Shown: positions 2,848 to 52,597 of the stretch, in pieces
How positions within the stretch are numbered: the first letter of the stretch is position 1
How the letters are laid out: each line of letters begins with the position of its first letter
DNA from: Aerococcus urinae
Lineage (GTDB): Bacteria > Bacillota > Bacilli > Lactobacillales > Aerococcaceae
Reading direction: 5' to 3'
Assembly: GCF_001543175.1 (NCBI RefSeq)
Contig: NZ_CP014161.1
Coordinates: 558,001 to 622,000, forward strand
DNA: 64,000 nucleotides
Notes under the pieces: generated by a model
Databases searched by the model: none
What the model was told of the DNA's origin: nothing
Seen by the model: only the letters and a program-made list of their open reading frames with translations
Position numbers and translations under genes: made by a program

Positions 2848-5493
2848 GTGCAAGAAATTGATATGCCCAAAAAATATAATCCTAATGAGGTAGAAATAGG
2901 CCGTTATGACCAATGGCTCGATGAAAAAGTCTTTGAACCCAATGGAGATGCTTCAGTCGAAGCCTATTCCGTGGTGATTCCTCCACCCAATGTTACTGGT
3001 AAACTCCACCTCGGCCATGCCTGGGACGTGACCCTTCAAGACATGATCGTCCGCCAAAAACGCATGCAAGGCTATGATACCTTGTGGTTACCTGGGATGG
3101 ACCATGCGGGGATTGCTACCCAAGCCAAGGTTGAAGAAAAGTTACGTAAAGAGGAGAATCTCTCCCGTTATGACTTAGGACGAGAAAAATTCATCGACAA
3201 AACCTGGGAATGGAAAGAGGAATATGCCCAAACCATTCGTAACCAATGGGCCAAAATGGGGATTTCTGTGGACTATAAGCGGGAACGTTTTACCCTAGAT
3301 GATGGCTTATCAGAAGCAGTACGTAAAGTTTTTGTGACCTTGTATGAAAAGGGGCTTATATACCGGGGTGAGTACATTATTAATTGGGACCCCGTCTTCC
3401 AAACCGCCTTATCAGATATTGAAGTGGTCTACAAAGATGACAAGGGAGCTTTCTATCATTTGGAATACCCTCTGGCTGATGGGTCAGGCTCCTTGCGCCT
3501 AGCTACTACCCGTCCAGAAACCCTGTTAGGGGACACAGCCGTTGCGGTCCACCCTGATGATGAACGCTACCAAGACTACATCGGTAAGACCGTTATCCTA
3601 CCAATTGTGGGTAGAGAAATTCCTGTGATTAGTGATGACTATGTCGACCGTGACTTTGGTACTGGTGTGGTTAAAATCACCCCAGCCCATGATCCCAATG
3701 ACTTTGCAGTGGGCAACCGCCACAATTTAGAGCGGATTAACGTCATGAATGATGACGGTACAATGAACGAAAATGCCGGCAAGTACCAAGGCATGACCCG
3801 GGATGAATGCCGTCAAGCCATTGTTGAAGACTTAAAAGCTGATGGTAGCTTGGTAGACATTGAAGAGATTGTCCATAGTGTGGGTCATTCCGAACGCTCT
3901 GACGCTGTAGTGGAACCCCGGCTTTCGACCCAATGGTTTGTGAAGATGGCTCCCTTAGCTAAGCAAGCCCTAGACAATCAAAATACCGAAAACCGTGTCG
4001 ACTTTTACCCACCACGTTTCGAGCAAACCTTTGTTTCCTGGATGGAAAATGTTCATGACTGGGTGATTTCCCGCCAACTCTGGTGGGGACACCAAATTCC
4101 TGCTTGGTACCATAAGGATAGTGGGGAAGTCTATGTTGGGATGGAAGCTCCTGAGGATGAAGAAAATTGGGTGCAAGATCCTGATGTCTTAGATACCTGG
4201 TTTTCAAGTGCTCTCTGGCCATTCTCTACCATGGGTTGGCCAGATGAAGAGGCTAGCGACTATAAGCGTTACTTCCCAACAGATACCTTGGTAACCGGTT
4301 ATGATATTATTTTCTTCTGGGTCAGTCGGATGATCTTCCAATCATTAGAATTTACCGGAGAACGTCCTTTTAAAAATGTTCTCATCCACGGTTTGATTCG
4401 CGACTCCCAAGGGCGAAAAATGTCTAAGTCACTGGGCAACGGAGTGGACCCCATGGACGTTGTTGATCAATATGGGGCTGACGCTTTACGCTGGTTCTTA
4501 GCTACAGGGTCAACGCCAGGCCAAGATATCCGCTACTATCCAGAAAAATTGGAAGCTGCATGGAACTTTATCAATAAAATTTGGAATGCTTCCCGCTATG
4601 CCTTGATGAACTTGGATGGAATGACCTATGATGACATTGATCTAAGTAACGTCACTTCCATTGTTGACCAGTGGATTTTGACCCGCTTAAATGAAACCAT
4701 TGCCAAGGTGACTGACCGTTTTGATGCCTTTGAATTTGGTGAAGCTGGCCGGGCCCTCTATCACTTTATTTGGAATGACTTCTGCGACTGGTATATTGAA
4801 ATGAGTAAAGAAGTCCTACAAGGTGATGATGAAGAGGCCAAACATACGACACGGAGTGTGCTCAGCTATGTCCTTGAACAAATGCTAGCTTTACTCCACC
4901 CCATTATGCCTTTTGTTACCGAAGAAATTTGGCAACATATTCCTCACCAAGGCAATTCTATTGTGACGGCTAAGTACCCTGAAGTCGATGAAAGTCAAAT
5001 CCACCAAGAAGCTGCTCGCCATATGGAGGCTTTGATTTCCTTTATTCGAGCTATCCGTACGGCACGGAATGAAAACAATGTCGCACCTTCCAAACCGATT
5101 GCCATTCATGTCAAAGCTAATTCCCAAGAGATTTTGACCATGTTAGAGGAAAACAAAGAATATATTAATCGCTTTGCTAATCCAAGTGAATTAGAAATGG
5201 CCCTGGATACGGAAGTCCCTGACCAAGCCATGACCCTATTCTTTAGTGATGGTGAAATTTACCTGCCTTTAGCTGGTTTTATTGACATCGATGAAGAAAT
5301 TCAACGCTTAGAAGCTGAACTAGACAAATGGGCTAGTGAAGTTGAACGGGTAGAGAAGAAATTAGCCAACCAAGGCTTTGTGAATAATGCTCCCGCTGAT
5401 CTGGTAGAGAAAGAGCGTCAAAAAGGCCAGGATTACCAACAAAAATACCAAGCCACTAAAGAACGTTTAGCTGATTTAAAAGCTACGAATTAG
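2848..5493 (+). CDS. valS: Valine--tRNA ligase
   Basis: Charges tRNA-Val with valine; class Ia synthetase, 881 residues, full length. The HIGH-type motif lies in [13 protein letters not shown] (about residues 49-61) and the KMSKS motif in [14 protein letters not shown] (about residues 525-538). The CP1 editing domain lies between them, with [17 protein letters not shown]. The C terminus is the usual coiled-coil arm. The start is GTG at 2848 behind an AGAGAGG site; ATG at 2863 ([10 protein letters not shown]) is an alternative. Expression is controlled by the T-box leader. folC, the common downstream neighbour in Firmicutes, is absent here. Confidence 0.97.
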
Positions 5494-5588: not shown

Positions 5589-5822
5589 ATTTGGTTGTTA
5601 GCCATGAATAAGCAAGCGATGTGAAATACGGATAGTAGGCATTAGCCGTACTATCCGTTTGAAGCTCGCTAGGCGAGAGACCTTGTGCTCGAGCCGGTGC
5701 CATGGCTCTTCAACTACCAAATCCAAAAGCAGAACGAAGGCTCATCAATAGTAAAAATAAAAGAAGCTAAGGATGTTTTAATTTATAAGAAGAGGCTAGG
5801 GTTAAAGTCCTAGCCTTTTTAA
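5589..5822 (+). ncRNA. Candidate structured non-coding RNA with intrinsic terminator
   Basis: No credible ORF occupies 5494-5822, but pairing is dense. ATTTGGT (5589-5595) pairs perfectly with ACCAAAT (5716-5722) and encloses several hairpins. These are CGGATAGT (5629-5636) with ACTATCCG (5650-5657), continued by GGC/GCC around an ATTA loop; CTCGC (5665-5669) with GCGAG (5673-5677); and GAGCC (5691-5695) with GGCTC (5704-5708). A terminator with arms GGCTAGG (5794-5800) and CCTAGCC (5809-5815) plus five T residues ends the unit. I do not recognise the class. I saw no SRP, RNase P, tmRNA or T-box signature. The 5' end is uncertain. Confidence 0.45.
5794..5822 (+). terminator. Rho-independent terminator of the candidate RNA
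   Basis: GGCTAGG at 5794-5800 pairs with CCTAGCC at 5809-5815 around an 8-base loop and is followed by TTTTT. It stands about 300 bases past the valS stop, so it probably ends a separate transcript or a long valS tail. Confidence 0.8.
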
Positions 5823-5888
5823 TTTATGTCGCACTCTTTTCTTTTTTATAAATTTTACTTAATTTTGTTAACAGGGGCTCTGCCTATA

Positions 5889-5917: not shown

Positions 5918-5963
5918 GTAATTACTACTTAAATGTTATTAATAAAATCTGTTGTTGACAGAT

Positions 5964-6110
5964 AGCGCCTGACTGATTAAAGCGATTTTTTCAGTGACGA
6001 GGACTAGGTTTATCGAAGATTCGGCGGGTGGCCTAGGGGTTGCACAATCCATAGAAAAGCACAAAAATCATTTTTAGCAAATGAAACAAAATCCTTTTCT
6101 CGTGCTTAAG
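5964..6110 (+). ncRNA. glmS self-cleaving ribozyme-riboswitch
   Basis: This RNA cleaves itself when bound to glucosamine 6-phosphate, which lowers glmS expression when product is plentiful. The 5' end reads AGCGCC at 5964-5969; family cleavage falls between A5964 and G5965. P2 is ACTGA (5971-5975) with TCAGT (5991-5995). The conserved core GACGAGG, GGTTTATCG and TCGGCGGGTG follows at 5997-6030. A distal helix is AAGCAC (6057-6062) with GTGCTT (6102-6107). These core blocks match the well-described ribozyme of Bacillus and Thermoanaerobacter. The 3' boundary is approximate. Confidence 0.93.
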
Positions 6111-15312: not shown

Positions 15313-15505
15313 GAAAATCTAAGAAAGGTTTTAATGGAGAAGATAGGCTGGGACAGGAGTTCAAAGCCCTTCAAATAAAGGGAGTAAAACCTGATTTAAA
15401 AATTAGCTTTGCTGGCATTTTCATAAACGAAGGGAGACTATTGAATACGGTTTTCTCTTCGTTTTTGTTTTAGCTGTCCAAATCTGAGGATATAGTATGA
15501 CTAGC
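15313..15505 (+). other. Intergenic stretch after polA, with small hairpins
   Basis: Part of a 625-base gap without a credible gene. A hairpin of CCCTT (15367-15371) and AAGGG (15378-15382) and a terminator at 15425-15467 are visible. A GGCTGGGACA-type sequence at about 15346 may pair with TGTCC near 15475. The hairpin repeat array begins at 15506. Confidence 0.5.
15425..15467 (+). terminator. Terminator downstream of polA
   Basis: AACGAAGGGAGA pairs with TCTCTTCGTT across a loop of about 16 bases, then TTTTTGTTTT follows. Confidence 0.6.
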
Positions 15506-15540
15506 GTTTTCGTCCTTTGGCGCACCCGTCGCACTCTTTT
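15506..15540 (+). repeat. Truncated copy (3' arm only) of the bulged-hairpin repeat, H0
   Basis: The segment reads TTTTCGTCC, then TTTGG, CGCACC and the tail TCGCACTCTTTT (15529-15540). This is the 3' arm of the family, including its 5-base T-rich bulge, but no matching 5' arm is found upstream. It is therefore a half element at the edge of the array. Confidence 0.6.
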
Positions 15541-15544
15541 AAAC

Positions 15545-15661
15545 GTGCACTGGTCACAGGACGAACGTCCACTTCAAAAAGCTGGTAACGCTCAGTTCCA
15601 CTGAGCTTATTCCAGTTTTCTCCAGTGTTTTCATCCTTTGATGTGATCATCGCACTCTTTT
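15545..15661 (+). repeat. Bulged-hairpin repeat, copy H1
   Basis: Long imperfect hairpin. The clamp GTGC (15545-15548) pairs with GCAC (15652-15655), followed by a 2x2 internal loop. TCACA (15554-15558) pairs with TGTGA (15642-15646). GGACGAA (15559-15565) pairs with TTCATCC (15630-15636) except one C/A mismatch. The 5-base bulge TTTGA lies on the 3' arm. CACT (15570-15573) pairs with AGTG (15624-15627), and the apex is GCTCAGT (15590-15596) with ACTGAGC (15600-15606). The tail TCGCACTCTTTTT starts at 15650. The next copy starts its tail 77 bases later. Confidence 0.75.
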
Positions 15662-15667
15662 TAAACC

Positions 15668-15738
15668 TGTTCCAAGCGCGAGGTGAGCTCCACTTCTTCC
15701 AATGGTCTCCCCTCTTTTTGCGCTTGTCGCACTCTTTT
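15668..15738 (+). repeat. Bulged-hairpin repeat, short copy H2
   Basis: CAAGCGC (15673-15679) pairs with GCGCTTG (15720-15726). GAGG (15680-15683) pairs with CCTC (15711-15714), leaving the 5-base bulge TTTTT (15715-15719) on the 3' arm. Outside this, TC opposes TC as a 2x2 loop and TGT (15668-15670) faces GCA. The conserved TCCACTTC lies at 15689-15696. The tail TCGCACTCTTTT is at 15727-15738. The apical part is shorter than in H1 and H3. Confidence 0.7.
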
Positions 15739-15742
15739 AAAC

Positions 15743-15859
15743 GTGCTCCTGGTGCAAGGCAAGCATCCACTTCACTAAAGGACGATGAATTCTTTTTAGA
15801 ATTCTTACGCCCTTTAGTTCCAGTGCTCTTGCCTTTCTGTGCACCTGTCGCACTCTTTT
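15743..15859 (+). repeat. Bulged-hairpin repeat, copy H3
   Basis: Clamp GTGC (15743-15746) with GCAC (15850-15853), then a 2x2 loop. GGTGCA (15751-15756) pairs with TGCACC (15840-15845). AGGCAAG (15757-15763) pairs perfectly with CTTGCCT (15828-15834), with the 5-base bulge TTCTG between. CACT and AGTG pair as in H1, then ACTAAAGG (15774-15781) with CCTTTAGT (15811-15818), and GAATTC (15787-15792) with GAATTC (15799-15804) at the apex. The tail TCGCACTCTTTT is at 15848-15859. Its length equals H1 (121-base period), but the arm sequences differ. Confidence 0.78.
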
Positions 15860-51999: not shown

Positions 52000-52063
52000 A
52001 ACACGAACTTAGAAAGAAAATGTGCTCCAGTCACAGGACGAACGTACGCTTCATATAGGGTGT

Positions 52064-52163
52064 GAGACTTGGCGTCTAGGCTTGGATGATTGGAGCAAGC
52101 CAGAATAAAAGCGAAAGATTCGCTTGTTTCTGACTTGTGAAATCACTCCAAGTCTTCCAAGTC
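52064..52163 (+). repeat. Nested hairpin A
   Basis: GACTTGG (52066-52072) pairs with CCAAGTC (52157-52163). Inside, TGGAG (52091-52095) pairs with CTCCA (52146-52150), CAAG (52096-52099) with CTTG (52134-52137), CAGAA (52101-52105) with TTCTG (52128-52132). The apex is AAGCGA (52109-52114) with TCGCTT (52120-52125). Confidence 0.65.
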
Positions 52164-52177
52164 GAACCCAACTAAAA

Positions 52178-52449
52178 ATTGCCAACGCACAGACTAGCTG
52201 AGCTCGGAAGGGGCAGGGGATGTCCTTTCAGAAAAGTTGAACGATCAAGCAAGTTGAGTTCGAATGCCAGCCTTGAAGTCGCTTCAGAAAATTCCAACGC
52301 ACAGACTAGCTGTGCTTATGGTATTTTCCTCCAGCGATTCAAGGCTTTGTTGGCATCCTCACATCCTTATAGTTGATCTTATCAACTTTTCCTCCAAGGA
52401 ATCTCCCTCCCTGATCCTTCCTCACATCCTTATAGCTGTGCTTATGGTA
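52178..52449 (+). repeat. Nested long stem B enclosing hairpin C
   Basis: GCACAG (52187-52192) pairs with CTGTGC (52436-52441), GGAAGG (52206-52211) with CCTTCC (52416-52421), CAGGG (52214-52218) with CCCTG (52409-52413), and TCCTT (52223-52227) with AAGGA (52396-52400). GAAAAGTTGA (52231-52240) pairs with TCAACTTTTC (52382-52391), and GATCAA (52243-52248) with TTGATC (52373-52378). Hairpin C fills the loop. Confidence 0.65.
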
Positions 52450-52465
52450 TTTTCCTCCAGCGATT
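52184..52465 (+). repeat. Direct repeats inside the nested element
   Basis: Three perfect direct repeats show internal duplication. A 32-base unit beginning AGCTGTGCTTATGG lies at 52308-52339 and 52434-52465. AACGCACAGACTAGCTG lies at 52184-52200 and 52296-52312. TCCTCACATCCTTATAG lies at 52356-52372 and 52419-52435. Confidence 0.9.
52264..52356 (+). repeat. Nested bulged hairpin C
   Basis: ATGCCA (52264-52269) pairs with TGGCAT (52351-52356). GCCTTGAA (52270-52277) pairs perfectly with TTCAAGGC (52338-52345), leaving the 5-base bulge TTTGT (52346-52350) on the 3' arm as in the other copies. CGCT (52280-52283) pairs with AGCG (52333-52336), GAAAAT (52287-52292) with ATTTTC (52323-52328), and GCACAG (52299-52304) with CTGTGC (52310-52315). 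Confidence 0.75.
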
Positions 52466-52597
52466 TCGCCCTCTAATGTGACTGTCGCACTCTTTTTTTA
52501 AAGAAAACTTTCTTAGCTTTATGGGGTTATGATATGATAAATAAGCAAGTTTTTTACTAAACCATAGAAATAAGAACTCATAAAAAGGATGTCATGC

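Follow-up and report, generated by a model that had tools for sequence, protein, structure and literature searches.

A large family of structure-conserved, mobile hairpin units, often behind stop codons, in Aerococcus urinae and other Lactobacillales

The 64,000-nt stretch of Aerococcus urinae DNA analysed here (the window) carries, between polA and mutM, a row of hairpins for which a first-pass annotation, made from the letters alone, recognised no known family and proposed a role at mRNA 3' ends, a regulatory role or an origin as a non-autonomous mobile repeat. The locus raises the question of what these hairpins are, and of whether they are kept in place as RNA signals or have spread as elements. 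The unit is a single bulged hairpin of about 117 nt, and the polA-mutM spacer contains three intact copies and one decayed half-copy, as follows (R1 and R2 are the covariance models described below):

15489..15540, + strand: decayed 3' half with its tail and a remnant of an optional side arm (ATATAGTATG...TAGCG), from the sequence, the arm motif being matched by eye.
15543..15661, + strand: intact unit w1 (R1 E 4.2e-26; R2 E 2.5e-20; fold z -5.49).
15665..15738, + strand: short unit w2, its apical part reduced to a minimum (R1 E 2.3e-16; R2 E 1.8e-12; fold z -3.23).
15741..15859, + strand: intact unit w3 (R1 E 2e-29; R2 E 1.2e-23; fold z -7.04).

The strand given for the window units is that of the first-pass annotation; copies anchored at stops elsewhere have its complement as the gene-sense strand. 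The RNA folds of w1, w2 and w3 agree with the architecture first proposed (a clamp, a 2x2 loop, a stem, a 5-base bulge on the 3' arm, a second stem and CRCT/AGYG), the CACT/AATG step of w2 being imperfectly paired. The exact tail TCGCACTCTTTT starts at 15529, 15650, 15727, 15848 and 52485, in agreement with the tail spacings of 121, 77 and 121 originally reported. Of the four tails of this array, three end intact hairpins, and the first (15529-15540) lies on the decayed half, where no family-type fold is found (RNA fold z 0.01). Two small ORFs that overlap the array gave no Pfam match at E<=1.

A further copy, O, had been placed at 52 kb. It is a whole unit, with its arms split by a stack of nested units:

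52020..52498, + strand: outer unit (O), from the sequence; its arms fold as in the family when the nested units are left out.
52054..52171, - strand: nested unit C, reversed, at the base of the outer unit's stem 3 (R2 E 7.1e-19; R1 E 1.4e-9; fold).
52195..52436 (approximate limits), + strand: nested unit D, inserted in the outer unit's apical loop and itself interrupted by B; it shows the family fold without B, and alone gives no model match.
52254..52370, + strand: nested unit B, within D's apical loop (R2 E 2.6e-21; fold).

The 5' arm of the outer unit occupies 52021-52053 and its 3' arm about 52454-52496, with some 400 nt of nested units between them. At the 52-kb junctions and at two other loci (L014 and L035), nested insertions come after AG on the 3' side of the apical loop, as judged by eye. 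At L014, in the own genome (G000:C1, about 1932100-1932200), TTATCCACA-like repeats adjoin the array, which suggests that the replication origin may lie nearby; the + strand holds 53 of the 68 own-genome matches between 0.96 and 1.97 Mb and 16 of the 26 elsewhere.

R1 and R2 agree on five window units, all at E<=2e-9, and each adds one weak match:

5776..5840, + strand: possible deletion scar, a terminator-like hairpin and then a bare tail, with the hairpin body absent (R2 E 0.25 only; read from the sequence, by inference).

The exact tail at 5829 (5829-5840) is outside any intact hairpin (best model match E 0.25), directly after the terminator-like hairpin and upstream of the glmS ribozyme (5953-6109), and is perhaps the scar of a lost unit. 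Occurrences of the tail with at most two mismatches do not depart from chance in the window (10 against 6.79 expected, a number reached in 16 of 100 shuffles), and the broader tail TCRCAYYCT is enriched there (11 against 3.38 expected; 0 of 100 shuffles). Genome-wide, exact TCGCACTCTTTT occurs 14 times and its reversed control 0 times. The T-run of the TCTTTT type, which had been described as the tail, is not a steady feature, many copies ending in TCTACC, TCTATC, CCTGTT and similar; its reading as a terminator is ruled out, because tails vary and the tail end often abuts stop codons.

Covariance model R1 was built from ten own-genome copies aligned with MAFFT, two of the starting set of twelve having been left out because their short apical parts misaligned. 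The model-based search of the genus and its relatives that had been recommended as a check found further copies in abundance. In the own 1.97-Mb genome (G000), R1 gives 94 matches at E<=0.01 and 103 at E<=1 (150 of 1681 candidates scored), and it has matches in 11 of the 15 genomes of the genus, own included, among them G002 (27), G003 (128), G004 (108), G011 (15) and G012 (38). The remaining four genomes are without a match for R1 or the broader model R2 (117 positions), two of the four being only 85% complete. R2 gives 43 matches in G011, 43 in G013 and 46 in G014. At the family level, matches appear in 27 of 76 genomes and 7 of 21 genera (E<=0.001), and at the order level R2 has matches in 67 of 395 genomes and 27 of 80 genera (E<=1e-5; 9 candidates scored per genome). 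Carriers include Desemzia incerta, Atopococcus tabaci, Carnobacterium jeotgali and Aerococcus tenax.

A composite of the type found in genome G201, used as a single query, was without a match in phages, and one plasmid record, A. tenax CP127381, was matched both by this composite and by the window array. That record (CP127381.1; L151 and L152), the 591-kb 'plasmid unnamed1' of strain UMB3669, encodes hprK, lgt, galU and other housekeeping genes and holds 28 places resembling the window array; it could be a chromid or a chromosome fragment. Rfam 15 has no match over the units (window at the gathering threshold; nine loci at E<=1), and no description of the family was found in the literature searched, in which subscription journals are thinly covered, so the initial failure to recognise a known family still stands. 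The family is real and large; its mobile hairpin units are conserved in structure, and as far as the searches went it has no name.

The first-pass annotation had proposed that the arms change in sequence while keeping their pairing, and the alignments bear this out. Both sides change in 23 of the 29 predicted pairs of the ten-copy alignment, which was not fitted to any structure. In alignment A3 (121 distinct rows, 3558 cells), 92.3% of the cells are paired, against 59.5% after shuffling and 39-49% after sliding, with both-side changes in 29 of 30 pairs and a covariation score of 0.81 (0.20 shuffled, 0.07-0.15 slid). A6, which consists of the best 150 of 175 matches (126 distinct rows), comes entirely from genomes other than the own one, with loci partly shared with A3; 90.2% of its cells are paired against 56.9% after shuffling, 29 of 30 pairs change on both sides, and the score is 0.80 (0.20 shuffled, 0.06-0.21 slid). 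Both A3 and A6 lean toward the model because both were fitted to it, and the 'further pair types' counted in A6 are not above shuffles (183 of 500). A constraint on the fold, proposed initially as selection on structure, is supported; the proposal had been staked on covariation and further copies, and both are seen.

The unpaired parts are fixed. In a column profile of 124 rows, the conserved unpaired motifs are a TC adjoining each side of the clamp, a (CG)TC loop ahead of CRCT, a TC behind CRCT with TTCC opposite, a T before stem 2', the bulge of about 5 nt and TCRCAYYCT; the ends of the unit in this profile are TCGGGT or ACNTGC, and TCRCAYYCT. The aligned copies span 12 numbered genera, across which the bulge and loop pattern is constant and the stems vary. 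Some copies carry an optional side arm, about 48-53 nt long, that follows TCCAGT (or TCCAAT, TCTAGT) and has TATGCG close to its 3' foot. Its position is the same in 17 of the 17 copies recognised as having the arm (own genome, A. tenax and G201); the side-arm pattern has 26 matches, 9 of them unrelated by context.

The units are also placed in a polar manner with respect to genes. For 57 of 117 tail-exposed units, a stop codon of the other strand lies at most 20 nt from the tail TCRCAYYCT, whereas the same is true of 3 of 116 heads and of 854 of 13920 random positions outside long frames (6.1%). A stop was counted when a frame of at least 80 codons on the complementary strand ended within -20..+3 of the tail; the rows came from A3 and A6, excluding near-duplicates, units less than 300 nt from the edge of a locus and units whose nearest neighbour on the tested side is at most 150 nt away. 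An earlier count with other limits gave 57 of 122, and in about ten of those 57 the stop is supplied by the unit itself. One example is a sugar transferase gene of A. tenax, which in the deposited annotation ends at L151:4587, with a unit beginning at 4590. The 60 of 117 tail-exposed units that are not at a stop by this test include the window array, an exception to the rule in that its tail faces the start of mutM. Among the 60 units not at stops, 25 have a TAA within the 12 nt before the unit, while two control windows give 17 of 60 each, and on these counts a TAA target is weak as the whole cause of stop anchoring.

Because the tail end abuts stops on the other strand, the transcribed strand is usually the complement of the one first read. 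Of the proposed role at mRNA 3' ends, the link to mRNA 3' ends is supported, while the orientation assumed for it is usually reversed. A gene-length frame is present both to the left and to the right of 106 clusters, out of 118 distinct ones, with an overlap between cluster and frame in 7 of the 106. Neighbours within clusters have the same orientation in 78 cases and opposite orientations in 5, and all 22 abutting pairs of the own genome are same-oriented, with gaps of 3-4 nt in 15 of them. Of the 55 stop-anchored arrays, 21 have a terminator-like site no more than 220 nt further along the gene strand, as called by a simple ad hoc rule that finds none in the other 34; base-shuffled sequences have such a site in 2 of 1100 cases.

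Two further observations concern the arrays. On the strand first read, a terminator-like hairpin (GAGGCTGGGACAAAAGTCCC type) with a short leader stands ahead of the heads of many units, at loci from several genera (L045, L046, L055, L065, L066, L122-L130, L138 and L139); this hairpin is common to the near-identical copies of G201, and its stem varies in L129 with pairing kept. In G014 (C1:1615344-1615919; L165), one stop is followed by five tandem units that recur every 115-116 nt, which looks like amplification through copying of the repeat.

Comparison of near relatives revealed three presence/absence differences of unit length (118, 118 and 117 nt), all located between a stop codon and an older unit. 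At gene Y, an extra 118-nt unit is present in G014 and absent in G011 and G013. At gene Z, the older unit lies directly at the stop in G006, an extra unit of 117 nt is found in G013, and a different extra unit of 118 nt in G014; the latter is present in decayed form in G011, so the event predates the split between G011 and G014. At the mutM locus, these four genomes are 93.9-97.3% identical, G011 and G014 being the closest pair. Of 14 mutM loci compared across the genus, two hold units (own genome and G003), and the polA-mutM spacers of G003 and G004 are too divergent for comparison.

The direct repeat, or ambiguity, at the join is 2 nt long for gene Y; for gene Z it is 1 nt in G013 and 7 nt in G014. 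In these three joins only, this argues against a constant target duplication. To the right of the join there are no mismatches in the first 12 nt at Z and one in 60 at Y. The Y and Z joins suggest that new units come in next to the stop, at least at these two genes, and by parsimony the differences would be insertions rather than exact losses elsewhere. Loss of hairpins is also seen, in one of five aligned loci and in the decay at gene Z in G011. These five other locus comparisons among close relatives (G014, G013 and G011; linear mapping) showed no clean unit insertion; they comprise one hairpin deletion, two indels of other DNA and two complex cases. Of further locus pairs, two share a unit without a break and one is unalignable. 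At gene X, the array is in a different state in each of three genomes, without a clean join, and gene V has two units in both G011 and G013 (by eye). In G201, 16 copies, out of 23 matches, align with 140 nt or more of the composite (95-100% identity) and lie in different places. The idea that they had inserted into palindromes was dropped, since the complementarity of their flanks was not significant (1128 of 20000 permutations; 14 of 16 copies usable).

According to these data, the suggestion of a non-autonomous mobile repeat is supported, and the units are probably REP-like, structure-recognised mobile hairpins of about 117 nt that reside in 3' UTRs and often insert behind stops. Their fold would be conserved through mainly Watson-Crick compensatory change around fixed unpaired motifs. 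Units would insert singly, often just behind a stop, between the stop and older units, and this stop-proximal insertion would make head-to-tail arrays grow in the 3' UTR; units would likewise insert into the apical loops of other units. A putative trans-acting recombinase or transposase may recognise the folded strand, with the unit boundary AGRGTGYGA (gene-sense strand) as its candidate target. Once inserted, the hairpins may act as REP-like 3'-UTR structures with roles in mRNA end protection, termination or stop-codon effects. Both this working in the cell and the putative enzyme are what we infer from the pattern.

A possible, if unlikely, alternative is that the units are cis-acting RNA elements, in which host selection keeps 3'-UTR hairpins for termination, mRNA stability or translation ending and recombination spreads them slowly. 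The stop-codon anchoring and the downstream terminator-like sites are in its favour, as is the kind of wobble observed. In A6 (3759 cells), GT is found in 41 cells (1.1%) and its mirror AC, which is wobble on the gene-sense strand, in 89 (2.4%); without the two wobble-richest pairs the counts are 26 and 43, and in A3 they are 43 and 95, with 37 of the 95 in one pair. This mild excess on the gene-sense strand would allow for an RNA. Wobble is still rare, however, in comparison with the glmS ribozyme and T-box of the window, which hold 5 GU and 1 AC in 69 pairs; pairing that is almost purely Watson-Crick fits folded DNA or strong RNA hairpins. Against the RNA account also stand the four genus genomes without a match, and the nesting, the same-gene differences between close relatives and the sixteen near-identical copies of G201, which point to spread.

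Doubtful, in our estimate, is a gene-free counterpart of integrons, in which hairpin 'cassettes' would be recombined via their folded strand by a putative enzyme, with the stop region as the entry site. Integron arrays gain units at one end, and their attC sites, partners of an IntI integrase, have R'/R'' boxes with a core of the GTTRRRY type. The attC site acts as a folded strand in which some bases are extrahelical, a spacer is left unpaired and the terminal part varies, and its sequence is little conserved (PMC2727003). The family resembles integrons in these features of the fold, in the low sequence conservation and in arrays that seem to gain units at one end. In contrast, it has no cassette gene, and no GTTRRRY-type core was seen in the 124-row profile.

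It is improbable that the covariation reflects mutation rather than selection, through template switching between the arms (quasipalindrome correction). Such a process would account for changes that are nearly always two-sided, with few one-sided intermediates, but copying of one arm from the other should erase asymmetry, and the asymmetric parts (the 5-nt bulge, unequal loops and unpaired TTC, TTCC and TC) are kept in the own and other genomes; unit-length insertions would, in addition, require another process.

Single-strand transposition of the IS200/IS605 or RAYT type by a Y1 transposase, as for REPs and REPINs, is disfavoured as very improbable: a hairpin with extrahelical bases, the lack of a constant target duplication and orientation-fixed arrays agree with it, but at E<=1e-5 no Y1 transposase (PF01797) was found in six copy-bearing genomes (G000, G002, G003, G004, G011 and G012, with 94, 27, 128, 108, 15 and 38 R1 matches), which rules it out as the shared enzyme for the genomes listed. 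It was found in G005, G006, G010, G013 and G014. A reverse transcriptase (PF00078), which would imply a SINE-like spread, is ruled out as the shared enzyme for the genomes listed by its own absence from six (G002, G010, G011, G012, G013 and G014, at E<=1e-5), being found in G000, G003, G004, G005 and G006. The own genome has three reverse transcriptase matches of near-equal score (G000:C1:452210, 467130 and 702827; L224), perhaps group II introns.

Among known repeats, the favoured reading of REP-like mobile units places the family closest to the REP/BIME/REPIN elements and their RAYTs, with which it shares short intergenic imperfect hairpins, many copies, composite arrangements and a non-autonomous nature. 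REPs are often near stop codons, a typical though not defining trait, and one that the tail counts reproduce for this family. The family differs from REPs in that its consensus has, by inspection, no GTAG or CGTC end tag, its arrays are same-oriented, its stems covary freely while its loops are fixed, and several copy-rich genomes lack a Y1 transposase match. Its units are 117 nt long, whereas REPs are given as 20-40 bp (PMC3733652). Derivatives of DDE transposons (MITEs) have a constant-length target duplication, which is not seen here, on three joins only.

The first-pass annotation had also compared the design to pneumococcal BOX elements, a likeness that holds for modularity only, BOX being judged by description. 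The hosts of the pneumococcal BOX, RUP and SPRITE elements are Lactobacillales. All three are structured and mostly <200 bp, BOX is modular (boxA-boxB(n)-boxC), BOX and RUP have terminal inverted repeats and target duplications, and SPRITE lies near gene 3' ends (PMC3049150). To that extent the family is alike in structure, size, order of host, modularity (BOX) and location near 3' ends (SPRITE), but its unit is one hairpin without constant duplication, a separation from BOX and RUP drawn from these descriptions. Similarly, the Efa-1 family of E. faecalis, 163 long and formed by a pair of adjacent stem-loops (PMC2267715), is set against the present units by description only.

Small hairpin repeats are common, and few bacterial families of them show fold, insertion site and recent insertions together. 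This family offers a ready set of natural compensatory variants and of presence/absence differences for finding the enzyme, and its covariance model would help annotators to recognise and mask such repeats. It also makes it possible to ask, in Gram-positives, what effect a strong hairpin located only a few bases after a stop has on mRNA ends and on translation ending. If the counterpart to integrons were true, the 3' ends of Lactobacillales genes would be built stepwise from tandem and nested hairpins.
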